From positions 2,771,570 to 2,835,569 of the forward strand of contig NC_023035.1 in the NCBI RefSeq assembly GCF_000507245.1: a DNA stretch of 64,000 nucleotides, in the 5' to 3' direction. Made by a program: the position numbers and the translations under genes. This DNA is from Salinispira pacifica (GTDB taxonomy: Bacteria; Spirochaetota; Spirochaetia; DSM-27196; Salinispiraceae). The notes beneath the pieces are model-generated. The model saw only the letters and a program-made list of their open reading frames with translations, did not search any database and was not told where the DNA came from. This document shows positions 9,408-58,998 of this stretch, in pieces; position 1 is the first letter of the stretch, and the number at the start of each line of letters is the position of its first letter.

Positions 9408-10619
9408 ATGCATCAGAAACGGAAAACCCGGGCATACCGTTGGTTCCACGGAATTTTAAAGCTCAGCTTCGGCAATTTCCTTAAATGGCGCTACCGGCTT
9501 GAGGCCGTCGGGCTTGCAGATCTCGAATCTGTACCCGGTCCCTGGCTGGTGCTTCCGAACCATGTAATGACCTGGGATCCGGTGCTGATCTCCCTGTTCA
9601 TCCGGGAGCCGGTGTATTTCATCGCTTCGGATGCCAATTTCCGGAATCCCGTAGCCTCCTGGTGGCTGCGGAGGCTGGGGGCCATTCCCACCTCCAAGCA
9701 GGCAACAGACCTTACCACCGTGAAGCAGATGCTGAGCCTTTTGAAACAGGGCCGTCATGTAGGGCTCTTTCCCGAAGGGGAGCGAACCTGGGACGGAGTG
9801 ACACTGCCGATTATTCCCGCCACCGCCAAGCTTGTCCGCCTTGCCAGGCGTCCGGTGGTGGTTCCGGTTATCAAGGGCGGATACCTCAGCCTGCCCCGCT
9901 GGTCATTCAAAAGCCGCCGGGGACCTATCAGCATAGAATACAAGCTGGCAATATCAGCAGAAGAGCTTCCGAAACTTTCTCTGCAGGAAATTCAGGAGAA
10001 AATAGAGAAGGCTTTGTTTCACGACGAGCACGAATATCAGAACAGCCAGAATCTCCCCTATATCGCCCCCGCTCCTGCGGAACCCCTGCAACTGGTGCTG
10101 TTCAGCTGTCCCGAGTGCCGGAATATGAACTGCATGGAGGGTACAGGTAATCTTTTCCGATGCAGAAACTGCGGATTTACCACAGCTTTCAGTGCCTACG
10201 GGCGTTTCCGCCCTGTGAACGGTTATACCACGCACTTCGAATCCATTTCCCGCTGGGCCGACTGGCAGAATAATCTGCTCCGGGAGAAAGTTGATGAAAT
10301 GCGAAACGGCAGCTCCCCGGAGACCCCCCTTTTTCATGATGAACCGGTGAACTACGCCACAGGATACAAATTCAAGTCTCTCAAACACCAGGCGAAGGGC
10401 CGCCTTCTGCTGAACGCATTAGGCATTGAGTTCCACCCTCAGGGAGGCCGGCCGCTACAGTTCCCCTGGAGTGAAATCCGGGCGCTGAATGTAGTGTATC
10501 AGAATCAGCTGGAATTTTACTACCGGAACAGCCTGCAGGTGTTCACATTTCCCGGTAAGGATACCTCAGGATACAAATACCTTGCTGCGGGGAAGCATTT
10601 CCTTACTCCTTCGGAATGA
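9408..10619 (+). CDS. PlsC-like acyltransferase with zinc-ribbon and C-terminal extension
   Basis: The ATG at 9408 is preceded by a strong GGGGAGG ribosome site; the frame is open 90 bases further upstream but without one. The 403-residue product starts with a glycerol-phosphate acyltransferase domain: HX4D motif His52-Asp57 (NHVMTWD), FPEGERTWDG, and a later VVPVIKGGY block. Expected reaction is transfer of an acyl chain to lysophosphatidate or a similar acceptor at the inner membrane. Unusually, a CPEC...CRNC zinc ribbon follows at about residues 232-262, and the last 90 residues (KGRLLLNALGIEFHPQGG, then FPWSEIRALNVVYQNQLEF) look like a GRAM/PH-type fold. The substrate is unproven. Confidence 0.8.
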   Translation: MHQKRKTRAYRWFHGILKLSFGNFLKWRYRLEAVGLADLESVPGPWLVLPNHVMTWDPVLISLFIREPVYFIASDANFRNPVASWWLRRLGAIPTSKQATDLTTVKQMLSLLKQGRHVGLFPEGERTWDGVTLPIIPATAKLVRLARRPVVVPVIKGGYLSLPRWSFKSRRGPISIEYKLAISAEELPKLSLQEIQEKIEKALFHDEHEYQNSQNLPYIAPAPAEPLQLVLFSCPECRNMNCMEGTGNLFRCRNCGFTTAFSAYGRFRPVNGYTTHFESISRWADWQNNLLREKVDEMRNGSSPETPLFHDEPVNYATGYKFKSLKHQAKGRLLLNALGIEFHPQGGRPLQFPWSEIRALNVVYQNQLEFYYRNSLQVFTFPGKDTSGYKYLAAGKHFLTPSE

Positions 10620-15374: not shown

Positions 15375-15557
15375 AGATTCTCCTTGTAAAAGTGAGAGGT
15401 AATTCAGTCTCCCACTATAGCAGTAGTAATGATGTGTATTTTTGAAGCAACAGTGTAAACCGACTCCAGATATGAGGCAAGAAAATTGAGTATTTTACTG
15501 AGGCAATTTCAAAAAACGGCGACTTTCACCTCGCTTTTCCTCCGCCTTGGAAGCTGA

Positions 15558-15563
15558 TATAGT
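15558..15563 (+). promoter_or_regulatory. -10 box, probable leaderless start for the dehydrogenase gene
   Basis: TATAGT ends 6 bases before the ATG at 15570. No Shine-Dalgarno sequence is present and the -35 is poor, so the transcript could begin at or next to the start codon. Confidence 0.4.
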
Positions 15564-15569
15564 TACCCC

Positions 15570-16529
15570 ATGCATGTACATTTTCAGGATGAGTGGTCAG
15601 ATGAAGACCAGGACGTTCTACGCCGGGAAGTTGACGGGCAGATCAGGCTGAGTTTCGCCTCCCCTCCGGAAGATCACAACACAGAAGTACTGGTTGCCGG
15701 CCGGCCGGATGAAAAGCTGCTGGACCGACTCAGGGGGCTGCACTCGGTAATTGTACCCTTCGCAGGTCCGCCCGGGAAAACCATGGCCATGCTGGCAGAC
15801 CGGCCTGATTTGAGCCTGTACAACATCCATCACAATGCGGTTCCCGTGGCCGAACTTGCATTGGGACTGCTTCTTGCCGCCGCACGGCACATCCCCCTCC
15901 GGGACCGTTTACTCAGAACCGGGGACTGGACGGGTTCCTATCACCTTCCCAGCATGATTCTCCGGGGGAAGCGTGTGCTCATTCTGGGGCGGGGCGCCAT
16001 CAGCGGGGAACTGGAAGCTCCTCTCAGGGCGCTGGGGATGGAGCTCCGCTTTATCCGCAACAATCCCCGGAACGGGGCTGAGGATGAATTCCATCCCCGT
16101 GAGCTGCACCGATTGCTGGAAGAAACAGACATTCTTATTTCCACCCTGCCGCTCAGCGATGACAGCCGGGGATTGATCGCAGAAAAGGAACTTGAACTCC
16201 TGGGTCCACGGGGCATCCTTATTAATGTGGGGAGGGGACGGGTAATTGACGAGGACGCCTTATACACGGCGCTGGCTGACCGTACCATTCAGGCCGCGGG
16301 TTTGGATGTCTGGTATCATTACCCCAGAGGAGAGGGCCGGGCCGGCAGTACCCTGCCGGGTGCACGCCCCTTCTGGGAATTGGAAAACCTGGTGATGAGC
16401 CCACATATAGCCGGGGAGTGGCCGAACCCGGAGGTACAGAGAATGCGCCTTCAAGCCCTGGCCCGGCGTATCAACGACATATTCCACAAAAACCCCGTGC
16501 CAAAGGTGGAAACTGACCGGGGATACTGA
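15570..16529 (+). CDS. D-isomer-specific 2-hydroxyacid dehydrogenase family protein
   Basis: 319 residues, cytoplasmic, NAD(P)-dependent Rossmann enzyme of the D-lactate/phosphoglycerate dehydrogenase family. The nucleotide loop is VLILGRGAISG, a variant of GxGxxG. The catalytic Arg is in NVGRGRVID and the His in SPHIAGEW. The segment after GLD reads VWYHYP, so the acidic residue usually found in the VFExEP stretch is not evident; the reaction may differ from a standard dehydrogenase. It is divergent from hppA, appears monocistronic and has a short terminator. Substrate unknown. Confidence 0.8.
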   Translation: MHVHFQDEWSDEDQDVLRREVDGQIRLSFASPPEDHNTEVLVAGRPDEKLLDRLRGLHSVIVPFAGPPGKTMAMLADRPDLSLYNIHHNAVPVAELALGLLLAAARHIPLRDRLLRTGDWTGSYHLPSMILRGKRVLILGRGAISGELEAPLRALGMELRFIRNNPRNGAEDEFHPRELHRLLEETDILISTLPLSDDSRGLIAEKELELLGPRGILINVGRGRVIDEDALYTALADRTIQAAGLDVWYHYPRGEGRAGSTLPGARPFWELENLVMSPHIAGEWPNPEVQRMRLQALARRINDIFHKNPVPKVETDRGY

Positions 16530-16546
16530 AATCCGCCGAACAGCCC

Positions 16547-16565
16547 TCTGCAATGGCAGATTTTT
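16547..16565 (+). terminator. short intrinsic terminator
   Basis: TCTGC and GCAGA form a 5-bp stem around AATG, followed by TTTTT, 17 bases after the dehydrogenase stop. Confidence 0.5.
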
Positions 16566-16634
16566 CCCCCGTATTTCAGCTTTCCAGGAATTTTCATGTT
16601 GAATTTTCTCCATTTGTAATATACTTGATAATCG

Positions 16635-16740
16635 AAAGCGCCACAGGTCATTCCTTATGTAAAAAGGCGCTTTTGCGCATACGAATATGTGTGGATATTC
16701 TCAACGAGTATAAATTTGATGCCCTGTCCCGAAGAGGGAC
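16635..16740 (+). other. structured 5' leader of the histidine kinase operon
   Basis: Three stems can be drawn before the kinase ATG (16767): AAAGCGCC/GGCGCTTT (16635-16673), GAATAT/ATATTC (about 16683-16700) and GTCCC/GGGAC (16726-16740). It does not match a riboswitch class I know. It may be a regulatory leader or simply secondary structure. Confidence 0.35.
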
Positions 16741-46829: not shown

Positions 46830-48896
46830 TTATATCCTGATGTTTTGCGGGAAAATATGATCAAATAATGACAATGCAAGCCAGTGCACGGTCCCCGTAA
46901 GCCAGGGAATGCCGCCCTGACCGTCCTTCACCGGGTAATAGCCGCCGTTGTAATAATTCACCAGTACATAGGGTTCGGCCCCGGTTTTCGCCGCATCCTT
47001 CCGGAAGGGAAGCAGCCGGGAAAGATAGTCCAGCCCGGCCTCGCTGCGCCCCGCCTTGAGAAGTGCGTACACGGCGAACGCCGATGCATGGTTGTACACC
47101 GCAAAGTTTTCCGCGACCCCCGGGGCCAGGCAGCTGAGATTTCCCACCACCGGATCGAAGTTCTCAAAACCCGGATGGCAGATGAGCAGACCGTTGTCGT
47201 TGGCAAGTCGGGCCAGCATGCTGTCCAGAGCTCTGGAGGCCTTCCCGGGGTCACGTTCGCCCATGCCGCTTATGGTGAACCAGGCCTGGGGAAGGAGAAA
47301 TATCCGTTCATCCCCCCCCACCGGATCGCCGTTCTCGTGATATCCCCGGAGGAACCACTCACCGTTCCAGTTGTTCACAACCCCCTGGTAGAGCTTCTCC
47401 TTTTCTGCTTCCCCGTCGAAATCAAGCTGAAGATTGTAACGGCTGGCCAGATCCTGGAGAATTGAAATGGAGTAGTAGGCCATCTCATTGAGCCACAGGC
47501 TCTCTCCCCGGGGCCCCAGCCCACTGAGGGCATCGTTCCAGTCCCCCTTGCCCATCTCCAGGAGACCGTGGGGGCCGTATGTGAGAACATAGTCCAGTCC
47601 TCTCAGCATATGTTCCCAGATGCTCCCCCGCTCAGTGCTGTTGAAATATTCGTGCTCTTCCTGAAGAAAGGAAGCATCGTCGGTCTGATCCAGATAGCGC
47701 TGAACCGCCGGGGCCAGCCACAGGGGCAGATCCCGGAAATCCCGTTCATCGTTCAGACCTCCTCCGGTGTTCCACTGGCGCAGACATCTGCCGGTATCCA
47801 TCATCTTGGTGCAAAGCGTGCGGATGAGCTTTGCCGAACCGCCGGGATCGAAAAAGCTCAAACCCATGGCATCCTGGGCAACGTCCCGATAGCCCCGGAA
47901 GGTTGAGCGCACATTCCCCCGGGCCTGCTGAATGATCTGGTAGGGAAGAAAGCCCGAAACATAGGAGCGCAGCCGGGGATCCTCCACCTTCAGCCACTCC
48001 TCACGGTGAAGCTTCCTGCTCCATTCACCGGGGATTTCCCACTGCCGGGCACGGACAGCCTGATTATCCGGAAAGCTCTTCAGCGATTCCCCAGCGGCGG
48101 TCTCCCCCTGTCCGATGAAGAGGTTGATGGTCCTGGATTCACCGGGGGCAAGGGAAATATCATACTGGAATGAAGCAGCATAAGGATCCCCTGCCGAAGG
48201 ATTGTTCCCCAGCATGCCCCGCCTCACCCCTTCCGGGTCCAGGTAATCCCCTTCCCCGGTGAACTCAACCAGACTGGATTCGAACGCCTGAGGGGCGGTA
48301 TCGGACCTGCAGAACCCGAACACCGGAGTGGAATCTGTCCGGAAGAATTCCATCTGATGAATATCATGCCTGTACCGGGAATTGGTGAACCAGCTGAAAT
48401 AGACCGGATCAACCGCCAGGTTATCGTAGAGCAGAAATTCCGCAAGGGTGAACAGCTGAAGCTGTTTTTCCTGTTCCGAGAGGTTCTTCACCACGATGCT
48501 CCAGATCTCATAACTTCCTTCCCGGGGAAGAAAGTGAGAACTTTCAACGCTCACGCCGTTTCGGGTCCCAGAAAGAGAACTCATTCCCGGCTGATGTACG
48601 CACCGGTACTCATCCAGGGGATTGGCCGTTGGATAAAACCCCGGGTTCCATACCTCCCCGCCCTCACGCACATACACAAAGCGGCCTCTGTTGGGGGTGA
48701 AAAAGTCATAATTGGTGACAACCACCCGGGGCTCTGTGAGAGTTGTTGCGAAGCCGTCACCTAAATGGCTGATTTTCAGACCGTACTCGCCGTTGGAGAG
48801 ATAATTGTACCAGGGGCGGTGGCGCAGAGGACGGGTGAGGATGAACTTTCCCTCCTCCATCCGCCAGTGTTCCGATGATGTTTTCTGTGCACTCAT
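46830..48896 (-). CDS. GH94 glycoside phosphorylase (chitobiose/cellobiose phosphorylase-like)
   Basis: 688 residues, no signal peptide. The N-terminal beta-sandwich (FILTRPLRHRPWYNYLSNGEYG) and (alpha/alpha)6 barrel match GH94; GYRDVAQDAMG and EMGKGDWNDALSGLG (catalytic Asp near 450) are the family signatures, with HPWLTG-like PWLTGTVHW at the end. GH94 enzymes cleave beta-linked disaccharides with phosphate, giving a sugar-1-phosphate and saving ATP. Next to GH3, nagA, nagB and a ROK kinase, N,N'-diacetylchitobiose is the likely substrate (inference). It stops soon after the PWLTG motif, lacking the roughly 100-residue C-terminal beta domain of characterised members. Start overlaps the GH3 stop by 4 bases (ATGA). 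Confidence 0.85.
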   Translation of the reverse strand: MSAQKTSSEHWRMEEGKFILTRPLRHRPWYNYLSNGEYGLKISHLGDGFATTLTEPRVVVTNYDFFTPNRGRFVYVREGGEVWNPGFYPTANPLDEYRCVHQPGMSSLSGTRNGVSVESSHFLPREGSYEIWSIVVKNLSEQEKQLQLFTLAEFLLYDNLAVDPVYFSWFTNSRYRHDIHQMEFFRTDSTPVFGFCRSDTAPQAFESSLVEFTGEGDYLDPEGVRRGMLGNNPSAGDPYAASFQYDISLAPGESRTINLFIGQGETAAGESLKSFPDNQAVRARQWEIPGEWSRKLHREEWLKVEDPRLRSYVSGFLPYQIIQQARGNVRSTFRGYRDVAQDAMGLSFFDPGGSAKLIRTLCTKMMDTGRCLRQWNTGGGLNDERDFRDLPLWLAPAVQRYLDQTDDASFLQEEHEYFNSTERGSIWEHMLRGLDYVLTYGPHGLLEMGKGDWNDALSGLGPRGESLWLNEMAYYSISILQDLASRYNLQLDFDGEAEKEKLYQGVVNNWNGEWFLRGYHENGDPVGGDERIFLLPQAWFTISGMGERDPGKASRALDSMLARLANDNGLLICHPGFENFDPVVGNLSCLAPGVAENFAVYNHASAFAVYALLKAGRSEAGLDYLSRLLPFRKDAAKTGAEPYVLVNYYNGGYYPVKDGQGGIPWLTGTVHWLALSLFDHIFPQNIRI

Positions 48897-50512
48897 ATGA
48901 TCTTGCTCTCCTTCTCACTGAAATACCCGGTCTGAAAAATCGCTTCGGTGAGGGCGGTGATCATATGGGGGGTTATGCCGCCGGTTACGATCACCGCATC
49001 GGAGTATTCCGCAAGCAAGGGCGCATCGTCGGGACTTCGGGTGGCCACCGAAATAATCAGGGGCCGGCGGGGCTCCCGGTTTCCCGCAACTTCCGAGATC
49101 TGCCGGAGAACCTCCAGCTGACGGTCAAAGCGGTAGGCGTTCACTGTGGTGAAGATGAGAACATCCGATACAAAGCCGATATCGAAGCAGGAGAGAATTT
49201 CTTCATCCGTGGGATTCCAGGGCATGATCACCTCTTTTACATAGGGGTGGTGCCCGGAAGATTCAATTTCGGTTTTCAGGGAAATATCGTAGAAGTTCAC
49301 CGTGTCGGACATCACCAGACGGGCAGGATTGGCAAGCACCACCGACACCCGCTGCTGCGGATCAGGGGCAAGGGGAAACAGATTATGAGGATCATGATAC
49401 TTCACCAGGGCTTCCCGGCACAGTTCAAGGCTGATTCGGTCCCCTTCCAATGTACTGAAATCCTTTGTTTCAGCGACGCGGCCGATATCGAAACTGAACT
49501 TCTTTTCCAGGATCCTCCGGGCTGACTCGTCAATCCGTTCCATGGGAATTCTGCCGTCCCGTACTGCCCCGGCAATAACAGGTATGAACCACTCGCCGGC
49601 TCCGGTGAAAATGATCAGATCCACGCCGGCGTTTACCGCCTGAATGGCCGCTTCCTCTTTGCCGTACATGTTCATAATCGCTTTCATGATCAGGTCATCG
49701 CTGATCACCAGCCCGGTGAAGCCCAGGGTATTTCTGATGTAAGAGTGTACGGCGGGACTCAGGGTTGCGGGCTTGTCATCGAAACTCTCATAGATGGCGT
49801 GATGAGTCATGATGGCATCGAGCCCCTCTGAAATTGCCCGCTTGAACGGTGCCAGCTCCACAGATTCCAGACGCTCCATGCTGTAATCGATCCGGTCCAG
49901 GGCATGGTGGGTGTCCCGTTCGGTGAGCCGCTGGCCGGGGAAGTGCTTGGCGCATGCCATGATTCCCGCGTCCCGGATTCCCGAGACGAAGCCCGCACCC
50001 ATATCCGATACAACCCGGGGATCAGGGGAAAACATCCGGTTATCCGCTACGGGAACTCCATTCCGGGAGTCGTAGCTCACATCCAGAACCGGTGCAAAGT
50101 TGATATTGATGCCCGCATACTTCAGTTCCCTGCCGATCTGCCCGGCTGCCTGTGCCGCCAGTTCCGGCCGGTCTGCGAAGCCCATGGCCATGTTTCCCGG
50201 GAAGATTGTCACCCCCCGGTGGAGTGCGGACAGCTGCCCCCCTTCCTGATCCAGTGTAATGAAGAGAGGAATTTTGTGGCGGCTCTGTCGGCCGTGTTCC
50301 TGGATTTTCCGGGAAAGCTCATGCAGCTGCTCCAGGTTATCCACATTTGCACCCGAGAAAAAAATCACCCCGCCCAGCAGGCCGTTTTCCGCCTTCTCTA
50401 TCAACTGGGGAGTAAGATCCTCCTTGCCTACAAAATCATGAAGAAACATCTGAGCGATCTTTTCCTCAAGGCTCAATGATTCCAGAATTTCCTGCACCTC
50501 ACTCATGGGCAC
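48893..50512 (-). CDS. nagZ: GH3 beta-N-acetylhexosaminidase (NagZ-like)
   Basis: 539 residues, cytoplasmic (no signal peptide). GH3 NagZ-type domain: IPLFITLDQEGGQLSAL, INFAPVLDV, MACAKHFPGQRL, the Asp-x-His dyad in TERDTHHALD and the nucleophile Asp in LVISDDLIM. An extra C-terminal domain of about 170 residues is present, longer than E. coli NagZ (341 residues). Expected release of beta-GlcNAc from chitin- or peptidoglycan-derived fragments; some GH3 members with this dyad are reported to act as phosphorylases. First gene of the leftward operon, ATG after CAGGAG. Confidence 0.85.
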   Translation of the reverse strand: MPMSEVQEILESLSLEEKIAQMFLHDFVGKEDLTPQLIEKAENGLLGGVIFFSGANVDNLEQLHELSRKIQEHGRQSRHKIPLFITLDQEGGQLSALHRGVTIFPGNMAMGFADRPELAAQAAGQIGRELKYAGININFAPVLDVSYDSRNGVPVADNRMFSPDPRVVSDMGAGFVSGIRDAGIMACAKHFPGQRLTERDTHHALDRIDYSMERLESVELAPFKRAISEGLDAIMTHHAIYESFDDKPATLSPAVHSYIRNTLGFTGLVISDDLIMKAIMNMYGKEEAAIQAVNAGVDLIIFTGAGEWFIPVIAGAVRDGRIPMERIDESARRILEKKFSFDIGRVAETKDFSTLEGDRISLELCREALVKYHDPHNLFPLAPDPQQRVSVVLANPARLVMSDTVNFYDISLKTEIESSGHHPYVKEVIMPWNPTDEEILSCFDIGFVSDVLIFTTVNAYRFDRQLEVLRQISEVAGNREPRRPLIISVATRSPDDAPLLAEYSDAVIVTGGITPHMITALTEAIFQTGYFSEKESKII

Positions 50513-50555
50513 GCTCCTGTTCAGCCGATCTGCATCGGCCGTGTATTCTATATTA

Positions 50556-50613
50556 GTTAGTTTTTTGATTTAACCAACATGGTAAGGGTAGGTTGAATAT
50601 CCCGGTATGTCAA
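50556..50613 (-). promoter_or_regulatory. leftward promoter and operator-like site A
   Basis: On the minus strand TTGACA (50613-50608), 17 bases, then TACCCT (50590-50585). GTTAGTT (50556-50562) and AACCAAC (50572-50578) form an inverted repeat with one mismatch that covers the predicted transcription start. It resembles operators of ROK repressors such as XylR (AGTTAGTTT-type half sites). Confidence 0.55.
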
Positions 50614-50645
50614 TGCATATTTCGGATCTTCAGGGCTTTCTCCGG

Positions 50646-50674
50646 TTGACAGGTGGGTCATGGGGATATACATT
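50646..50674 (+). promoter_or_regulatory. rightward nagA promoter
   Basis: TTGACA (50646-50651), a 17-base spacer and TACATT (50669-50674): a near-consensus sigma-70 promoter for nagA-nagB-ROK-ROK. Confidence 0.7.
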
Positions 50675-50679
50675 GAGTA

Positions 50680-50702
50680 TAGTTAGTACACGCAACTAAC
50701 TA
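50680..50702 (+). promoter_or_regulatory. operator-like site B at the nagA start
   Basis: TAGTTAGT and ACTAACTA form a perfect 8-bp inverted repeat with a 7-base centre, exactly over the predicted start of the nagA transcript. Half sites match site A. Likely bound by the ROK repressor encoded at 52925. Confidence 0.65.
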
Positions 50703-50747
50703 ACACATGAAAACCGAAAGTGCTGTTCCGGTTTTCCGGAGGGAGAT

Positions 50748-51923
50748 ATGAATAGAATTGTATTATATAATGCCACAGTTTTCACCGGGGTCACAAAGGT
50801 GGAGAAGAGCGCAGTACTTATCGAGGACGGCATTATCGCCGATGTGTTCTCGGAAAAGCGGTTCTCCCAGAAATCGTTCCCGCCGGGAACGGAGCTGTAC
50901 GATCTGGAAGGTGCCTTTCTGGGACCGGGACTCATCGATACCCATATTCACGGACTTCACGGTCACGGAACCGACGACCTCACCATAGACGCCGTGGTGG
51001 CAATGAGCGATGCCTTGGTGGAATACGGGGTAACCAGTTTCTGCCCCACCATATACCCCCAGCAGGATGAGGATTTCATCGCATCCATAAAGGCCAGCGC
51101 AGACGCCATGGGGAAGGAAACCGGCGCAGAAATTCTGGGGCTTCATCTGGAAGGCCCCTTTATCAACCCCGAGAAGCGGGGGGTACAGATTCCCGAATAT
51201 ATGAAAGGGGTGGATCTCTCTCTCATGGAGGAGTATTACCGCACCGCCCGGGGACAGATCACCAACATGACCGTAGCCCCGGAACTGAAAAACATGCGCG
51301 AACTGGCCCTCTATTGCGCAAAAAAAGGCATTGTCCTCCAGGCAGGGCATTCAAGCGCAAGCTACGACCAGATGCGGGAGGGAATGGAGGCGGGAATAAC
51401 CCATGCCACCCACTTCTTCAACGCCATGCGGAAAATGCATCATCGGGACCCGGGGCTGGTGGGGGCCATCCTCATCCATCCCGAGCTGACCTGTGAACTG
51501 ATTGCCGACGGAGAGCACGTGCACCCCGCCATCGTTCAGCTTCTGGTGAAGGAAAAAGCGGCGGACAAAATCTGTCTGGTCACCGACGCCATTAAACCCA
51601 CCAACCAGAAAGGGGGCTGCCTTCTGGCCAACCAGGAGGAAGTGTACCTGGGTGAAGACAAGGTATTTCACAGGACGAAGGATGATGTTATTGCCGGCAG
51701 CGCCCTCACCCTCAACCGGGGGGTGGGCAATATGGTAGACTGGGGAATCAGCCCAACCGATGCGTTGCTGATGGCCAGCTACAGCCCGGCAAACATTCTG
51801 GGCTTCCACAAAGAGATCGGCAGCCTGCTGCCCGGCCGAAAAGCAAACCTGGCGGTATTCGACAGGGAGTTCAACGCAGTGGCGACCCTTGTGAACGGCA
51901 ATTTTCTGAAAAAAGAGATTTAA
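50748..51923 (+). CDS. nagA: N-acetylglucosamine-6-phosphate deacetylase
   Basis: 391 residues, cytoplasmic metal-dependent amidohydrolase. It removes acetate from GlcNAc-6-P to give GlcN-6-P. Metal and substrate motifs: [24 protein letters not shown] with the metal Glu, [15 protein letters not shown], and LVTDAIKP with the catalytic Asp. GGAGGG precedes the ATG. First gene of the rightward operon under the promoter at 50646; nagB follows after a 154-base gap holding the 21-bp repeats. Confidence 0.95.
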
Positions 51924-51956
51924 TACAGCTCCCCCGCCGGTGGTGAAGAGATATTT

Positions 51957-52040
51957 CTTCGGCGGGAAGATGCAACTTTTCGGCGGGAGGAAATTTTCCT
52001 TCAGCGGAGAAACAGATTCATCCGGCGGGAAGGGCGGCGT
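51957..52040 (+). repeat. four-copy 21-bp periodic repeat before nagB
   Basis: The core CGGCGGGA occurs at 51960, 51981 and 52023, and a degenerate copy (CAGCGGAG) at 52002: exact 21-base spacing. Around it the consensus is TTCGGCGGGAAG. The repeat lies in the nagA-nagB gap. It is in frame with an upstream extension of nagB, but the true nagB start has a good ribosome site at 52078, so I read it as non-coding. Confidence 0.75.
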
Positions 52041-52077
52041 ACTTCAGCAGGGTGGTATATTCAACCAAGGAGTTCCA

Positions 52078-52896
52078 ATGAGACTTATTGTGCAGGACAA
52101 TTATGATAACATGAGCAAATGGGCTGCAGCCTATGTGGCCCGGAAAATCCGTACATTCAATCCCGGTCCACGCAAGCCCTTTGTTCTGGGTCTGCCCACA
52201 GGATCATCGCCGGTGGGAATGTACCGTGAGCTGATACGGATGTATGAAGAGGGAATCGTCAGTTTCCGGCATGTGGTGACCTTCAACATGGACGAGTATG
52301 TGGGACTGGATGAGAATCATCCCCAGAGTTATCACTATTTCATGTGGGACCATTTCTTCTCCCATATAGATATCTCCCGGGAGAACGTCCACATCCTGAA
52401 CGGTATGGCACAGGATCTTACCGAAGAATGCAGAAAGTATGAACAGTCGATTCAGGAAGCAGGCGGCATCGATTTGTTCCTGGGGGGAATCGGTCCCGAC
52501 GGACATATCGCATTTAATGAGCCGGGAAGCAGTCTCAGCTCCCGCACCCGTATTAAAACCCTTACCAAAGATACAAAAGAGGCGAACTCACGGTTTTTTA
52601 ACGGCGATCCCTCACAGGTCCCGGACAAAGCCCTCACTGTGGGAGTAGGTACCATTATGGATTCCTCGGAAATCCTTCTTCTGGCCAGCGGACACAATAA
52701 GGCCAGGGCCCTGGAGCAGTCCATCCAGCAGGGAGTCAATCACATGTGTACGGTGAGTTGTCTACAACTCCACCCCCATGCAATTATGGTCAGCGATGAA
52801 GAAGCCACGTATGAGCTGAAAGTGGGAACGGTGAAATATTTCAAGGATATTGAAGCACCCAACCTGGACCACCGCAGCATGCTGGAAGATCTATAG
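52078..52896 (+). CDS. nagB: glucosamine-6-phosphate deaminase
   Basis: The ATG at 52078 is chosen because AAGGAG precedes it and the protein then begins as family members do ([10 protein letters not shown]). 272 residues. It isomerises and deaminates GlcN-6-P to fructose-6-P and ammonia. Motifs: [25 protein letters not shown] with the catalytic Asp, [16 protein letters not shown] with the catalytic His/Glu, and VGVGTIMDS. Cytoplasmic, last step of GlcNAc catabolism before glycolysis. Confidence 0.95.
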
Positions 52897-52924: not shown

Positions 52925-54121
52925 ATGAGGGCGGAAATTATGACGGCTGGAAATCAGACCTTTCAAAAACAGGCGAACCTCTCACTGGTTCTGCGGCGGA
53001 TCAGGGAACACGGAATGATCAGCCGGGTAGAACTCTCCCGAATTCTGGGGCTGAAGAAATCCACGGTAACCAACATTATTGCCGAGCTCATGGACAGGGG
53101 CATTGTGGAGCAGCGCAAGGAAGGAGAAGCTTCGAGCATGGGGGGACGCAAGCCCGTGTACCTGGGAATCCGCCCGGGGATTGCCGGTATTCTGGGCCTG
53201 GAAATCGAACTTGGGTTTTACCGGGCCGTCTACCTCGATTTGTCAGGTAACCGGCTGTGGAGCGGTTACGCCGAGGTGCCGCCGCTGCCTCTGGAACATA
53301 TGTTTGACTATATTATCCAGCACATTCAAAAAGATATTGAAGCCACCGGGGTACCTCCGGCGGGCATCGGCGTGGCAGTTCCCGGTTCTGTTGACCTGGA
53401 ACAGGGAAAGATCATCGAAAGCGTGACGTTCAAACTGAACGATTTCGATTTCGCAGGAAAAATATCATCCAGATATTCCATCCCCGTGTTTCTGGAGAAC
53501 GACACCAACTGCGGCGCATGGGGGGAGCTGTGGAGACGGAATGATGAAAAGGTGAACTTCCTCTATCTTCTGATCCGCTTCCACTTTCATAACCTGGAAA
53601 AAACCGAAAAACCGGGTGTGGGGCTGGGTCTGGTTATTAATGGTCAAGTGTATTACGGATCCAGTTTCCGGGCCGGTGAACTGGGTTCCAATCTCTGGGA
53701 CGAGGAAGGAACCGAGTACCTTCACATGAGCAGCGAGGAGCTACTCCGGATCAAGGAAGATCCCCGGCTCATGGAAAAATTCCTGGAAGCGCTCTTCCGG
53801 AAACTTTCCGAAAGTTTCAGCATTCTCGATCCTTCTGAGGTATTTCTTGCCGGCGACGTGGACGAATACCGGGACAGCATTCCCCGGGTACTGGAGCGGC
53901 TGAAGGATGACAGCTGGTTCGGAAACCCCCGGCAGCGGGAAAAAATCAGTTTCAGCAAAGGCGGCGAGATGGAGATGCCCTTCGGAGCGGCATGCATGGT
54001 TCTTGAACGCCTCTACAGCATTCCCCAGCTCGGCAGCAGCCGGGGCCGGATACATATCGACTGGGAGCATGTCTTTGAAATCCCGGAAACCGGCGCATCT
54101 CACATGCTCGGAACTGTGTGA
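52925..54121 (+). CDS. ROK-family transcriptional repressor
   Basis: The ATG at 52925 lies 6 bases after AGGGAG; ATGs at 52919 and 52940 are also in frame. 398 residues. An N-terminal winged helix-turn-helix (SRVELSRILGLKKSTVTNII) is followed by a ROK sugar-kinase-like domain. The domain has kept GVAVPGSVDLEQGKI but has no CxCGxxGC zinc motif and no GH motif of the kinase branch, so it is a sensor rather than an enzyme, like NagC and XylR. It most probably controls the divergent promoters at 50556-50702. Located between nagB and the ROK kinase; 18 bases separate it from the next gene. Confidence 0.88.
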   Translation: MRAEIMTAGNQTFQKQANLSLVLRRIREHGMISRVELSRILGLKKSTVTNIIAELMDRGIVEQRKEGEASSMGGRKPVYLGIRPGIAGILGLEIELGFYRAVYLDLSGNRLWSGYAEVPPLPLEHMFDYIIQHIQKDIEATGVPPAGIGVAVPGSVDLEQGKIIESVTFKLNDFDFAGKISSRYSIPVFLENDTNCGAWGELWRRNDEKVNFLYLLIRFHFHNLEKTEKPGVGLGLVINGQVYYGSSFRAGELGSNLWDEEGTEYLHMSSEELLRIKEDPRLMEKFLEALFRKLSESFSILDPSEVFLAGDVDEYRDSIPRVLERLKDDSWFGNPRQREKISFSKGGEMEMPFGAACMVLERLYSIPQLGSSRGRIHIDWEHVFEIPETGASHMLGTV

Positions 54122-54135
54122 ACGGGAGAATCGAA

Positions 54136-55311
54136 ATGTACAGTCTGGGAATTGATATCGGCGGGACCAGTATTAAAGCATGCCTGTACCGCATGGGCGA
54201 ACCGGGGGGCGGGCTGGAAGCCGTTGCCGAACCGTTGAGACAGGCAACCCCCTCCGACGGATCCTACCGCAGCATGCTGGACCTGCTTCACCGCATTATT
54301 GATCATCACCGGGAACTGATCCCCTCAGAACAGCGGAATTCAGGAATGCAGATCGGCCTGGGCACACCGGGACTGGTGGACAGCCGGGGGTACCTCCGGG
54401 GGGATGCGGTGAACATTCCCGGCTGGACCGGCGTACAGCTGAAGGATGAGCTCTCGGAATACGCAGGGGTGGAAGTGCAGGTCGCCAACGATGTGAACAT
54501 GGCCGCCTATGCCGAGTGGCGGCTGGGTGCCGGAACCGGCAGCGACTCCATGGTCTTTATCTCGCTGGGTACCGGTATTGGATCGGGCATCATCACCCGG
54601 GGGGGGCCGGTAGCCGGTCATACGGGGATGGCCGGAGAGATCGGCCATCTGGTGGTGGAGCCCGGAGGCCGGCAGTGCAAATGCGGCCTGAAAGGATGCC
54701 TGGAACGCTACTCTTCGGCTTCGGGGATCGCCCTCACTGCACAGGAGCTGGCGGAAACCGGAGGCCCCGAGCTGGACGGCCCCCTGCGAAGCCTCATACA
54801 GGGAAACCGAATACAGAGAAGCCGCATACTGGGAAACCCCATACCTGAACAGCGCGCCGTCTCCGACGTTGCGCCGCCCAGCGTTGCTCCGGCCACAGTT
54901 GATTTCCGGGACGTCCCCCCGGGGGCCAGCTCAACAGCCCAGCCGCGCACACAACGGCCGGCCGGCCCTGACAATCCGGCGGACGCACAAGGGGTGTATG
55001 AGGCCCTTGAACAGGGCGATCCCCTGGCCCGGGCGGTACACGCCTCCAGTTCACGGCGTCTGGCACAGGCAGCAGCAGCGGTGGCTCACATGCTGAATCC
55101 CCGGCTCATTGTGTTGGGCGGCGGAGTTCTGGCCGCAGGAGATGTAATCGTTCAGGGAGTGAAGGAACATCTTCATGAATTTGTGATGCCCATGGCTCTG
55201 GATGATCTGGAAATCCGCCGCACGGTTCTGGGCCCGGATGCGGGCATGCTGGGCGCCGCCGCAATGGCGGCGGATTTCGCCGGGGAAGGCTACTCGCTGA
55301 GCTCCAGCTGA
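54136..55311 (+). CDS. ROK-family sugar kinase, likely N-acetylglucosamine kinase
   Basis: The ATG at 54136 follows GGGAG; an in-frame GTG at 54118 overlaps the repressor stop. 391 residues, about 90 more than usual. ATP motif LGIDIGGTSIKA, catalytic Asp in VANDVNMAAYAEW, GTGIGSG and the zinc motif CKCGLKGCLE are intact, so it should be active. By context it phosphorylates GlcNAc (glucose is the alternative). A Pro/Ala/Arg-rich insert of about 70 residues (near 220-290, including a repeat NRIQRSRILGN) separates the zinc region from the C-terminal helix. The 3' end overlaps the convergent gene at 55290 by 22 bases. Confidence 0.87.
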   Translation: MYSLGIDIGGTSIKACLYRMGEPGGGLEAVAEPLRQATPSDGSYRSMLDLLHRIIDHHRELIPSEQRNSGMQIGLGTPGLVDSRGYLRGDAVNIPGWTGVQLKDELSEYAGVEVQVANDVNMAAYAEWRLGAGTGSDSMVFISLGTGIGSGIITRGGPVAGHTGMAGEIGHLVVEPGGRQCKCGLKGCLERYSSASGIALTAQELAETGGPELDGPLRSLIQGNRIQRSRILGNPIPEQRAVSDVAPPSVAPATVDFRDVPPGASSTAQPRTQRPAGPDNPADAQGVYEALEQGDPLARAVHASSSRRLAQAAAAVAHMLNPRLIVLGGGVLAAGDVIVQGVKEHLHEFVMPMALDDLEIRRTVLGPDAGMLGAAAMAADFAGEGYSLSSS

Positions 55312-57449
55312 AGATTGTAATGGGCCCCGATAAAGCCGGCGGCCGACCACGCCTGGTAGCGTTTTCCCATGGGACGGCCGGTCTTCCCGTGCACCCACTC
55401 ATTAAATTCCCAGTCCGCCTCAATTCCCAGATGATTCATCTGGGCCAGACGGTACAGCTCCTGCTGGGCAAGGTCACGCAGCCCCAGACGGTTAATGAAC
55501 ATCACCCAGTACGCTCCCACAAACGGCCAGGCTCCGCCGTTGTGATAATGATCCGGCAGATTGAGGAGGTTCACCGTGTAATAGGTTCGCCAATGGGGAT
55601 CTCCTGACTGTACCGGAGGATAGAGGTTCACAACAGGTGAAGGCTCGTTCACACCCACACCCCACATGAAATTGAAAGCGGTTTTCGCCCTCTCATTGCT
55701 CAGCACATTGAAAAGGCCCGCCAGAATATTTCCGTATACGTCGCAGCGCCAGTCAAAATCGAAGGGGGTGATTTCCGCCAGAAGATAATGGGTGTCCCCC
55801 AGGGCGTACTGCTGTTCGGAAAAATTCCTGGTCTGATCATTGTGAATCGAAGGCCAGAACTTCCGGTTGATGGTTTCTTTGATCAGCTGGGCCTGCCTGA
55901 GACGGTAGCCTGCAAGATTGTAATCCCCCAGAAGCTCCGCAATACGGCCGTGGGTGAGATTGGCATAGTACCAGAGAACTTCATCGTACAGAACATTGTA
56001 GCTGCGGCCGAACAGATCCATCCAGTCTCCCGCCTCGGGAATTTCAAGGAGGGAATCGTTATTGCTGTCCTGGGCTTCCAGCCAGTTCATAATATTCTTG
56101 ATCTCATCTCCCCAGTTACGCAGATACTCATAGTCGCGGGTCTGTCGGATATAATGATAAAAGGCAATTACCAGCCACAGTCCGCTGTCGATGGATGCGA
56201 TATCCCCAACCCCTGAATAGTCGGGGGTGACCGAATCTATGCGCACATTGCTGGGAACCTGCCCCCGGGTGGAGGTGTGCTCAAGAAGGGTCTGGAGGGT
56301 GGCTCTCTGACAGCGGCGGATATCCGGATCGTCCACCGAAAGGGAGTTGATGACGGTAATTGATCCGTCCCTGGCCCAGATGCTGCGGTAGTTCTCATCG
56401 GTGGTTTCGAAGGTGTTGTCGTTCAGACTGCAGGCAGAAAATCCGATGGGGGTGATGTTACGCTTCAACACCTCCACGGCTTCTTTGTAGGCGGTGTTGA
56501 TATAATCGCTCTGATCACTGCTGAGAGCCTTGAAGGAGTCGGAGCGCAGCACATTGTGGAGCACCGGGTCGAAATTTTTGTGACTCAGTTCCTCGTCGCT
56601 TACATCCACCACTGAGGTAATCACGCCGAAATGGATCAGCCCTTCCAACACCCCGTCGGCGAAGGGTTTGGTGGCCACATAGGTGGGACGTTTAATGGTT
56701 TCCAGAAGCAGTTCGGGCTGGGCGTTCTCCACGATGATTCCCTGCACACCGGAAATCTGAAACATGGAATTATCGTTTCCCGTATCCCCGGCAACCAGCG
56801 TTTCCTCCACCTGAATCCCGAGCCACTCTGCCAGCCAGTTCAGGGCATTCCCTTTATTGGCATAGAGGGGAAGAATATCCAGATCCCGGCTTGAGGAATA
56901 GATCACATTCACCGAGAGCCCTTCATCCTCCAGCGCTTTTTTGATCTCGTCGATTCTCCGGGGAGGAGCGTCATGAAAATACCAGCTGGATTTGAATTGA
57001 TTCTGATATTTGCTGGGCTGAAACTCCAGTTCAGGAAATCCCCGCATCACCTTCTGTACGGTATCCAGATTCCACCCTGCATTGAGAGTGTCGGAGAATA
57101 CCTTGATATATTCCCGCTTGCGGTAATCGTAAATGACCGTGCCTACCCCGCAAATCAGATAATCAGGATCCGGGAGATAGCTGGATTTGATGGCTTCGAT
57201 GGTATGGGGCAGAAGGCGGCCGGAGTTGTACACCAGAAGAGGTGCGGAATCCCCGGATGAGGGGCCCCGGGTTTCACCCCGACCTTCTCTCAAAGCATTC
57301 CAGGTATGATGGAAGGCCAGAGTGGCATCGGGTTTTCCAAGAAGGGTGCCGTCAAGGTCTGAGGAAAACAGTTTAATAATGGTTCCGTCCTCTGTTCTGG
57401 CGGGCTCCCGCTGGTGCATTTTTCGTTCATCCTTTTTCGATTCAGCCAT
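55290..57449 (-). CDS. fusion of sucrose-phosphate phosphatase (HAD) and GH100 invertase
   Basis: 719 residues. The N-terminal 290 are a HAD phosphatase of the sucrose-6-phosphate phosphatase type: SSDLDGTLLG, LLVYNSGR, CGVGTVIYDY, DILPLYANKGNALNWL, and AGDTGNDNSMF. Residues about 320-715 match GH100 neutral/alkaline invertases: IWARDGSITVIN, IASIDSGLWLVIAFYHYI with the Asp acid, YHNGGAWPFVGAYWVM, EFNEWVHGKTGRPMGKRYQ and AWSAAGF. The protein would convert sucrose-6-P to sucrose and cleave it to glucose and fructose. It is transcribed just after an SPS-like glycosyltransferase. Exact substrates are inferred. 3' end overlaps the ROK kinase. Confidence 0.8.
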   Translation of the reverse strand: MAESKKDERKMHQREPARTEDGTIIKLFSSDLDGTLLGKPDATLAFHHTWNALREGRGETRGPSSGDSAPLLVYNSGRLLPHTIEAIKSSYLPDPDYLICGVGTVIYDYRKREYIKVFSDTLNAGWNLDTVQKVMRGFPELEFQPSKYQNQFKSSWYFHDAPPRRIDEIKKALEDEGLSVNVIYSSSRDLDILPLYANKGNALNWLAEWLGIQVEETLVAGDTGNDNSMFQISGVQGIIVENAQPELLLETIKRPTYVATKPFADGVLEGLIHFGVITSVVDVSDEELSHKNFDPVLHNVLRSDSFKALSSDQSDYINTAYKEAVEVLKRNITPIGFSACSLNDNTFETTDENYRSIWARDGSITVINSLSVDDPDIRRCQRATLQTLLEHTSTRGQVPSNVRIDSVTPDYSGVGDIASIDSGLWLVIAFYHYIRQTRDYEYLRNWGDEIKNIMNWLEAQDSNNDSLLEIPEAGDWMDLFGRSYNVLYDEVLWYYANLTHGRIAELLGDYNLAGYRLRQAQLIKETINRKFWPSIHNDQTRNFSEQQYALGDTHYLLAEITPFDFDWRCDVYGNILAGLFNVLSNERAKTAFNFMWGVGVNEPSPVVNLYPPVQSGDPHWRTYYTVNLLNLPDHYHNGGAWPFVGAYWVMFINRLGLRDLAQQELYRLAQMNHLGIEADWEFNEWVHGKTGRPMGKRYQAWSAAGFIGAHYNLQLELSE

Positions 57450-57582
57450 TATGTTAACTCCTATCAGCCTCTATCTATCTTATATTGGGAATCTGTCCCA
57501 GGTGGAGCGATCTTCCCCGGGGCTTTCCGGTGCGGTGCTCCCGGCGGCCGCTCCGGCTGCCCCTGCCCCGGCCTATTCAGGA

Positions 57583-58998
57583 TCAGCGGTTCACCACATC
57601 GGTGAGGTTTTCCACCTCGTTCAGCAGTCTCTGGGCAATCCCCGTCCAGGTGAAGCGTGCACGGGCTCTCTGGGCAGCCCTGAGCTTCAGCCTGTCCCTG
57701 AGTGCCGGATAATGCAGGGCCTCAAACATGTTGATCCCCAGTTCCAGTTTGTCGAAGGGATCGGCAAAGAGGGCGTGAACTCCGTACTCCAGTACACGGT
57801 ACAGCCCGCCGTTCACCGTAACGATACAGGGCGTACCGCTGGCCATGGCCTCAATTGCGGTCATGCCGAAGGGTTCATAGCGGCTGGAGAGCACAAAAAG
57901 ATCACCGGCCCGGTAATAATCCGGAAGGTCCTCATCGCTGATGAACCCCAGATACTCGATGTTATCTTCCGTACCGGCTTCTTTGCTGATTTTCTGAAGC
58001 TTGTCGAAAATGGCCTGCTCCGACGGGCTCCGGTCATCGTGACCGATGGCCAGAACCAGCCTGGCATCGGGAATGCGTTCCACCACCAGGGAAAACGCAT
58101 CCACCAGCAGGTCAAGCCCCTTGTTTTCCGCAAGCCGGGAGACGGCAAATACCGTAGGTCCTTCCCAGCCGAGTCTGCTGCGCACCGCCTGCCGGGAGGA
58201 TTCTCCCACAGGAAAAAAGCGGTTATCGTCGTATCCCGGAGGAATCATCCGCATATCGGTATGGGAAACATCGTAATCCTCCTGAATTTTGTCAACCTGA
58301 ATTGGAGTTGTGGCCACCAGCAGATCGCAGGTGCGGTAGATCCGGGTTTCATGGGCGATCCGTTCTGTGAAATTGTATTTTTCCTCGAAACTGTCTGCGT
58401 CTTCGGGATAATCGGTGAGCATCTGCGCTTTTTTCCAGCTTCCGATGGAATGGGGGGTGTGCACGTGGGGAATTTCCAGCTGTTCGGAAAGCAGCTGACC
58501 GGCAAGTCCGGCGTCCCAGTAATGGCTGTTCACAAAGCTGTAGCTCAGGCCGTTGCGCTGAATATAGTTTTGGGCGTTCTTCACCCATTCGGGAATGGAG
58601 CGGTACAGGTACTCTTTGGGGATGAACTCCTCCCCTCCGCAGGGCATGCGGATAATCCGTACATTATCATCCACTTCCTCCACTTCCGGCTGGCCTTCAA
58701 ATTTTCTTGTCCAGATATCCACATGGTACCCGAAATGGCTGATTTTTTTCGAAAGCTCAAGTACATACACCACCTGACCGCCGGTGTCCGGTGCACCCAG
58801 AGGCGGTTCAGCCGCCACATATCCGTGGGTTGAAATCATCATAATCCTGTTGGAAGAGCTCTGCTGGCCCGGTCGCTCTGTGGAACCCGATCCGGCTTTG
58901 GAACCCGAGCCTGCCGCAGATCCCGAAGCTGCCGGAGATCCGCTTTTCCGTGATGATTTTTCCTGATCCTGTGTCTTTTTTCCTTTTCTACGAAGCAT
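57583..58998 (-). CDS. sucrose-phosphate-synthase-like glycosyltransferase (GT4)
   Basis: 471 residues. GT4 fold with the opening MMISTHGYVAAEPPLGAPDT and GGQVVYVLELSKK typical of sucrose synthase/sucrose-phosphate synthase, FVNSHYWDAGLAG, HVHTPHSIGSWKK, IPPGYD and the E-x7-E motif EPFGMTAIEAM. It should transfer a hexose from a nucleotide sugar to fructose-6-P. A Ser/Gly/Lys-rich tail of about 50 residues precedes the core. GAGG precedes the ATG. The phosphatase/invertase fusion lies 133 bases downstream on the same strand. Sucrose would be a compatible solute in a saline habitat. Confidence 0.85.
   Translation of the reverse strand: MLRRKGKKTQDQEKSSRKSGSPAASGSAAGSGSKAGSGSTERPGQQSSSNRIMMISTHGYVAAEPPLGAPDTGGQVVYVLELSKKISHFGYHVDIWTRKFEGQPEVEEVDDNVRIIRMPCGGEEFIPKEYLYRSIPEWVKNAQNYIQRNGLSYSFVNSHYWDAGLAGQLLSEQLEIPHVHTPHSIGSWKKAQMLTDYPEDADSFEEKYNFTERIAHETRIYRTCDLLVATTPIQVDKIQEDYDVSHTDMRMIPPGYDDNRFFPVGESSRQAVRSRLGWEGPTVFAVSRLAENKGLDLLVDAFSLVVERIPDARLVLAIGHDDRSPSEQAIFDKLQKISKEAGTEDNIEYLGFISDEDLPDYYRAGDLFVLSSRYEPFGMTAIEAMASGTPCIVTVNGGLYRVLEYGVHALFADPFDKLELGINMFEALHYPALRDRLKLRAAQRARARFTWTGIAQRLLNEVENLTDVVNR

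Follow-up and report, generated by a model that had tools for sequence, protein, structure and literature searches.

Genes of the divergent locus

We analysed a 64,000-nucleotide stretch of Salinispira pacifica DNA (the window, whose first letter is position 1), in which two sets of genes for amino-sugar use are transcribed away from a shared 236-bp region. The genes of the two arms are as follows.

50748..51923, + strand: nagA, N-acetylglucosamine-6-phosphate deacetylase (TIGR00221, 417.6 bits against a cut-off of 225.65; ATG at 50748)
52078..52896, + strand: nagB, glucosamine-6-phosphate deaminase (TIGR00502, 412.5 bits against a cut-off of 236.9)
52940..54121, + strand: ROK-family transcriptional regulator with helix-turn-helix and ROK domain, the candidate binder of operators O1 and O2
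54118..55311, + strand: ROK sugar kinase, presumed GlcNAc kinase (PF00480, 185 bits; substrate assigned from context)
48893..50506, - strand: GH3 beta-N-acetylhexosaminidase-like protein, gene 1 of the leftward unit (PF00933; ATG near 50506)
46830..48896, - strand: GH94 phosphorylase-like protein, gene 2 of the leftward unit (PF17167, PF06165; substrate tentatively assigned from context)

The best solved relative of the GH3 protein is a GH3 beta-N-acetylglucosaminidase (6k5j). The nagB reading frame is listed from GTG 51940, and its family match begins at residue 47, which corresponds to ATG 52078. With the substrates of the GH94 protein and the kinase taken from context, both arms together can convert chitobiose to fructose-6-phosphate. 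The 154-bp gap between nagA and nagB (51924-52077) is missing in the related locus G063 (below), where nagB directly follows nagA. The kinase gene carries 15-bp tandem repeats (54795-54901), and the low-complexity insert that they encode interrupts the ROK domain midway. A leftward pair of genes at 55290-58998 encodes a sucrose-phosphate-synthase-like glycosyltransferase and a HAD protein that combines a sucrose-phosphate-phosphatase-like domain with a domain weakly matching glucosylglycerate-hydrolase and debranching-enzyme families; the pair perhaps serves compatible-solute synthesis.

The regulator scores above the gathering thresholds of the ROK domain (PF00480, 68.6 bits against 22.9) and of the MarR-like winged helix-turn-helix (PF01047, 30.6 bits against 24.6; residues 21-65 of the ORF from 52925). 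It falls far below the equivalog cut-offs for NagC (NF047937, 70.5 bits against 650) and Mlc (NF049930, 54.9 bits against 530) and, judged by these NCBI models, is neither. Typical ROK proteins are marked by the zinc motif CxCGxxGCxE; inspection of the translations located it in the kinase (54118-55311) and found it absent from the regulator. Among solved structures the best relatives of the regulator are 2hoe (deposited as an N-acetylglucosamine kinase, presumably from Thermotoga), XylR 4ija and Listeria Lmo0178 5f7p, the similarity to the XylR chain 4ija being moderate (E 1.5e-21). An earlier note on this DNA had named the ROK protein starting at 52925 as the obvious binder of the intergenic palindromes. 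The association of operators with its clade in relatives (below) leaves it as the best candidate, but translation, judged by alignment, probably starts at ATG 52940 rather than at 52925.

Divergent promoters with an operator at each predicted start

Two promoters and two operators were located between nagA and the GH3 gene.

50646..50674, + strand: nagA promoter (TTGACA 50646-50651, 17 bp, TACATT 50669-50674; the -10 box ends 18 bp short of the O2 centre)
50585..50613, - strand: leftward promoter (TTGACA 50613-50608, 17 bp, TACCCT 50590-50585; the -10 box ends 17 bp short of the O1 centre)
50556..50578: operator O1, at the leftward promoter (GTTAGTTTTTTGATTTAACCAAC, 23 bp, GTTAGTT-N9-AACCAAC; 12/12 specified bases)
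50682..50704: operator O2, at the nagA promoter (GTTAGTACACGCAACTAACTAAC, 23 bp, GTTAGTA-N9-AACTAAC; 11/12 specified bases)

The nagA promoter, TTGACA-17-TACATT, reads at 50646-50674 exactly as described before. The -35 boxes of the two promoters stand back to back with 32 bp between them. The leftward -10 box, TACCCT, is weak, with three of six consensus matches, and a consensus scan did not list the leftward promoter; that scan listed 4 promoter-like sites over 8 kb, where shuffled sequence gave 4.3. On consensus alone the promoters are unremarkable. Taking +1 as about 7 bases past the -10 box, O1 and O2 each start at the predicted +1 of their own promoter and end at about +23. The palindromes thus do reach the predicted transcription starts, as had been claimed, but each covers +1 to about +23 and does not straddle the start evenly.

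The paired operators are confirmed: two inverted repeats with the same half-sites lie where the earlier note had placed them. The best register common to both is the 23-mer GTTNGTT-N9-AACNAAC, in which their centres are 126 bp apart; the previous figure of about 124 bp corresponds to a different register of the 4-bp repeat of which the arms are built. The genome scan that had been proposed for defining the regulon found O1 and O2 as the sole matches to this pattern with at most one mismatch in 3,782,798 bp, while a reversed control pattern gave one match genome-wide. Within the window, two matches at this stringency compare with 0.07 expected, a number equalled by 1 of 100 shuffles. At up to three mismatches the window holds 13 matches against 15.2 expected, which is chance level, so only the strong matches are meaningful.

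The XylR-type core GTTNGTT-N5-AACNAAC in its 25-bp frame is present here, O2 (50682-50700) matching it at 11/12 bases; O1 scores 12/12 with N9 and 11/12 with N5. Genome-wide, GTTRGTW-N5-WACYAAC is matched exactly by O2 (50682-50700) alone; a one-mismatch match at C1:3769409, inside an ORF resembling recR (a name given by inspection of the translation), was taken as chance. The initial patterns TTAGTT-N12-AACTAA and TTAGTT-N13-AACTAA caught the sites but mixed registers of the 4-bp repeat, and GTTNGTT-N9 (or N5) is preferred because of the sites in relatives.

In the leftward transcript, a stable hairpin at 50524-50539 (GCCGATGCAGATCGGC) lies just 5' of the GH3 ribosome-binding site; the leader that holds it folds better than shuffles (z -2.5).

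Related loci and conserved operator placement

A class-level search of 394 genomes for relatives of the ROK regulator at E of at most 1e-60 returned 44 genomes, its own included. The closest relative outside its own genome (G063) is 52% identical and lies in a nagA-nagB-ROK-kinase cluster ordered as in the window, with a nagA promoter TTGACT-17-TAGTAT followed by GTTGGTTCACCGAACTAAC. In G003 the cluster runs SBP-permease-permease-GH3-GH94-ROK with operator and promoter directly 5' of the SBP gene, and a separate nagA has a looser inverted repeat ahead of its start. G302 has GH94 divergent from ROK-ABC-GH3-nagA-nagB and a single strong operator past the rightward promoter; in G212, where ROK-ABC-GH3 and GH94 diverge, there is one strong site, and a weaker repeat can be made out by eye towards GH94. 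Named genomes contributed 80 further ROK loci, nearly all of them spirochaete by title (two being labelled only 'bacterium'), including those of Gracilinema caldarium and Alkalispirochaeta alkalica. After removal of 6 duplicates among 106, 100 distinct ROK-bearing loci (1.42 Mb) remained for comparison, and the operator class of the window is also present with these related spirochaete regulators.

The position of the operators is conserved. We measured the distance from the -10 end of any promoter-like match, on both strands, to the centre of each of 85 merged sites. The operator centre lay 10-19 bp past the -10 box for 52 matches (48 sites by hand count, near-identical relatives being counted repeatedly here as in the spacer and tree tallies below), both window promoters included, against 0-5 matches in the other 10-bp bins from -300 to +300. 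Many of the relatives' promoters pair TTGACA with a GC-rich -10 box (TACGCT, TAGGCT, TAGCCT), so TACCCT is not unusual. It is on this recurring promoter-operator distance that the promoter assignments rest, the leftward one above all, and the TTGACA-17-TACCCT promoter of the earlier note holds in spite of its weak -10 box.

Operator spacing and the ROK tree

For each spacer from 0 to 12, we tallied across the 100 loci the inverted GTTNGTT pairs in which 11 or 12 of the 12 specified bases fit. The counts were 1, 4, 1, 1, 9, 32, 1, 2, 21, 55, 1, 1 and 11: an excess at spacers 4/5, 8/9 and 12 (9, 32, 21, 55 and 11) over the 1-4 sites at each of the other eight (0-11). Peaks at 4/8/12 and at 5/9 are what a half-site built as a 4-bp repeat (GTTNGTTN) would give, with a true frame of 18 bp (GTT-N12-AAC, 'even') or of 19 bp (GTT-N13-AAC, 'odd'). 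O1 and O2 are odd, as is the Bacillus subtilis xyl operator as printed in the available text of PMC12034463.

We placed these frames on a quick tree built from 102 ROK proteins, in which several long branches are unsure; two of 104 rows had been excluded for length (L100_1, L207_0), and loci L066 and L099 yielded no ROK match. Rows were labelled by sites within 700 bp. The clade with the window regulator (43 rows) holds 21 odd, no even and 22 unlabelled rows, the window row being among the last because O1 and O2 lie more than 700 bp from the ROK gene. In the other clade 22 rows are odd, 16 are even and 21 carry no label. Across the labelled rows, with the ambiguous L105_0 left aside and WIN_0 assigned to odd by hand, parity changes three times. 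With the same two adjustments, one residue of the recognition helix tracks spacing, being T in 41 of 43 odd-site rows and S in 14 of 16 even-site rows, a correlation that proves nothing because the tree offers only 2-3 independent pairs.

Amino-sugar loci, recognized by close NagA/NagB, GH3 or GH94 relatives, account for 11 of the 43 rows in the regulator's clade. Seven have a site of at least 11/12, and in an eighth it lies in the neighbouring stretch, ahead of the same operon. The other three (L102, L135, L190) have no site of at least 11/12 nearby; L102 shows a 10/12 site by eye, and L135 covers only 262 bp before the ROK match.

The same genome encodes a paralogous ROK regulator of mannoside type (G000:C1:3306587-3307693; 34% identical), with half-site GTTRGTT and two even sites flanked by a ROK-ABC transporter unit on one side and a GH2 mannosidase-like gene on the other. 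These operators lie outside the window, at 9710-9838 of locus L033 (G000:C1 ~3307709-3307837). The spirochaete ROK family may share one half-site (GTTRGTT, repeating every 4 bp) and a common position (+1 to about +23), its paralogues being insulated by a 1-bp difference in spacing, so that amino-sugar regulators would use the 19-bp frame and mannoside regulators the 18-bp frame in the same cell. We offer this only tentatively and think it somewhat more likely to be wrong than right. One-base spacing, if it does separate paralogues, would illustrate in a simple way how crosstalk between duplicated repressors is prevented. In a search of open-licence papers we found neither this operator class described for spirochaetes nor its two spacing classes.

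The Sphaerochaeta-type loci L116 (3192, 4542) and L154 (7864, 9229) have adjacent ROK genes, of which one has an odd-spaced operator ahead of it and its neighbour an even-spaced one. A further ROK regulator of the S. pacifica genome (G000:C1:3313486-3314693; L033 ~15487-16694) appears to be split over two frames, a helix-turn-helix part and a ROK part, and is perhaps a frameshifted gene; directly upstream, at 3314747, is a weak even-spaced operator with 2 mismatches.

Comparison with known systems

Divergent promoters with one ROK operator each for amino-sugar genes are of a kind already known. In the nagE-nagBACD region of Escherichia coli, as here, a ROK repressor encoded in the nag operon acts on divergent amino-sugar promoters through two operators. 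The differences are that the window regulator falls short of the NagC family model (70.5 against 650 bits), that the NagC operator sequence is of a different type from O1 and O2, and that the second E. coli arm encodes a PTS transporter in place of GH3-GH94.

BadR of Borrelia burgdorferi reportedly binds TAAAATAT motifs. Like the window regulator it is a spirochaete ROK protein linked to genes of carbohydrate uptake and metabolism, but the available text of PMC12472547 has it regulating rpoS and bosR. In operator sequence there is a likeness with B. subtilis XylR, whose operator TTAGTTTGTTTGGGCAACAAACTAA, in the part of PMC12034463 available, has the same 25-bp frame and GTTNGTT-N5-AACNAAC core and is identical to O2 at 18 of 25 positions by hand count, which bears out the previous description of the sites as XylR-like. 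Its position is also comparable to that of O1 and O2, the Bacillus xyl operator sitting between the -10 box and the ribosome-binding site (PMC9104551, available portion). XylR differs in governing a xylose regulon, and the proteins are only moderately similar (4ija). A XylR-type operator would extend to many spirochaete ROK regulators, with a predicted fixed place at the transcription start.

In gene content there is a likeness with ChiR of Thermotoga maritima, a ROK regulator encoded with its targets nagA, nagB and a chitobiose-splitting hydrolase (PMC3750489, in the text available); the window regulator is likewise encoded with nagA, nagB and a gene of beta-N-acetylglucosaminidase type. From the same text, T. 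maritima has one operon and one site (PMC3750489), whereas the window has two divergent units and two sites. The T. maritima operon also includes a chitobiose ABC transporter (PMC3750489, same portion), whereas none was found under an O1/O2-type operator in this genome. A transporter search with the G003 SBP likewise gave no second regulon member in the genome, the sole strong relative of that protein sitting in the paralogous ROK locus.

Proposed regulation of the locus

We consider it very likely that the 236-bp region provides two-promoter control of a chitobiose/GlcNAc regulon by the ROK repressor; binding, repression, autoregulation and inducer are what we infer. Each sigma-70-type promoter would carry one 23-bp operator over about +1 to +23. 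As long as inducer is lacking, the ROK protein (52940-54121) would sit as a dimer on each operator and block transcription at its start, silencing both GH3-GH94 (leftward) and nagA-nagB-ROK-kinase (rightward). Since its gene is third in the rightward operon, the regulator would also control itself. A sugar of the pathway would bind the ROK domain and release the repressor. Chitobiose is the likeliest inducer, GlcNAc or GlcNAc-6-P being possible; it is favoured purely by analogy with T. maritima ChiR, which according to the available text of PMC3750489 is released by chitobiose and not by GlcNAc. Because no further operator site was found in the genome, the regulon would consist of the nag locus alone, and it gives a concrete candidate regulon for chitin-sugar use in a spirochaete.

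The two operators might act jointly, one ROK tetramer or two dimers bridging O1 and O2 in a DNA loop as NagC does at E. coli nagE-nagB. Their distance of 126 bp amounts to 12.0 turns of 10.5 bp, and the paralogous locus of S. pacifica likewise has a pair of operators, separated by 103-105 bp according to the register chosen. There is also the NagC precedent, Plumbridge and Kolb (cited in PMC2806358) being said to have reported loop formation by the Nag repressor in E. coli in 1993. Other two-operator loci have their sites 61, 100, 111.5, 133, 192.5 and 195 bp apart, with no common phase, so that looping is possible but finds no comparative support; moreover, each operator alone would block its own promoter by position. 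We therefore regard a loop as rather unlikely. It is improbable that another ROK protein, for example the mannoside-type paralogue (3306587-3307693), binds or co-binds O1 and O2. The 34% identity and the common half-site GTTRGTT would allow it, but the paralogue's operators have the 18-bp frame and those of the nag locus the 19-bp frame, and the spacing classes follow different ROK clades, with only three changes over the labelled rows.

Control by the repressor encoded at the locus, acting on O1 and O2 as DNA sites, also has to be set against readings in which they are not protein-binding sites at all. Low GC in the intergenic stretch (~40-44% against 55-60% in the adjoining genes) favours words of this sort, yet chance repeats in AT-rich DNA are scarcely credible given two sites where 0.07 were expected, their standing as the sole pair in the genome and the conserved position relative to promoters in relatives. 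The palindromes could instead form RNA hairpins at the transcript 5' ends, affecting stability or attenuation, and both 23-mers do fold as 5'-terminal hairpins. These are weak (-3.4 and -4.4 kcal/mol), however, and the sites go together with a regulator of helix-turn-helix type, which makes this reading very improbable. At the fourth, variable position of the arms, 33 distinct oriented sites have 10 Watson-Crick, 6 G-U, 8 A-C and 9 otherwise unpaired combinations. RNA-pairable combinations are not preferred: the sites give no indication that RNA pairing has been selected for, and binding by a protein able to tolerate either purine in each half-site fits better.
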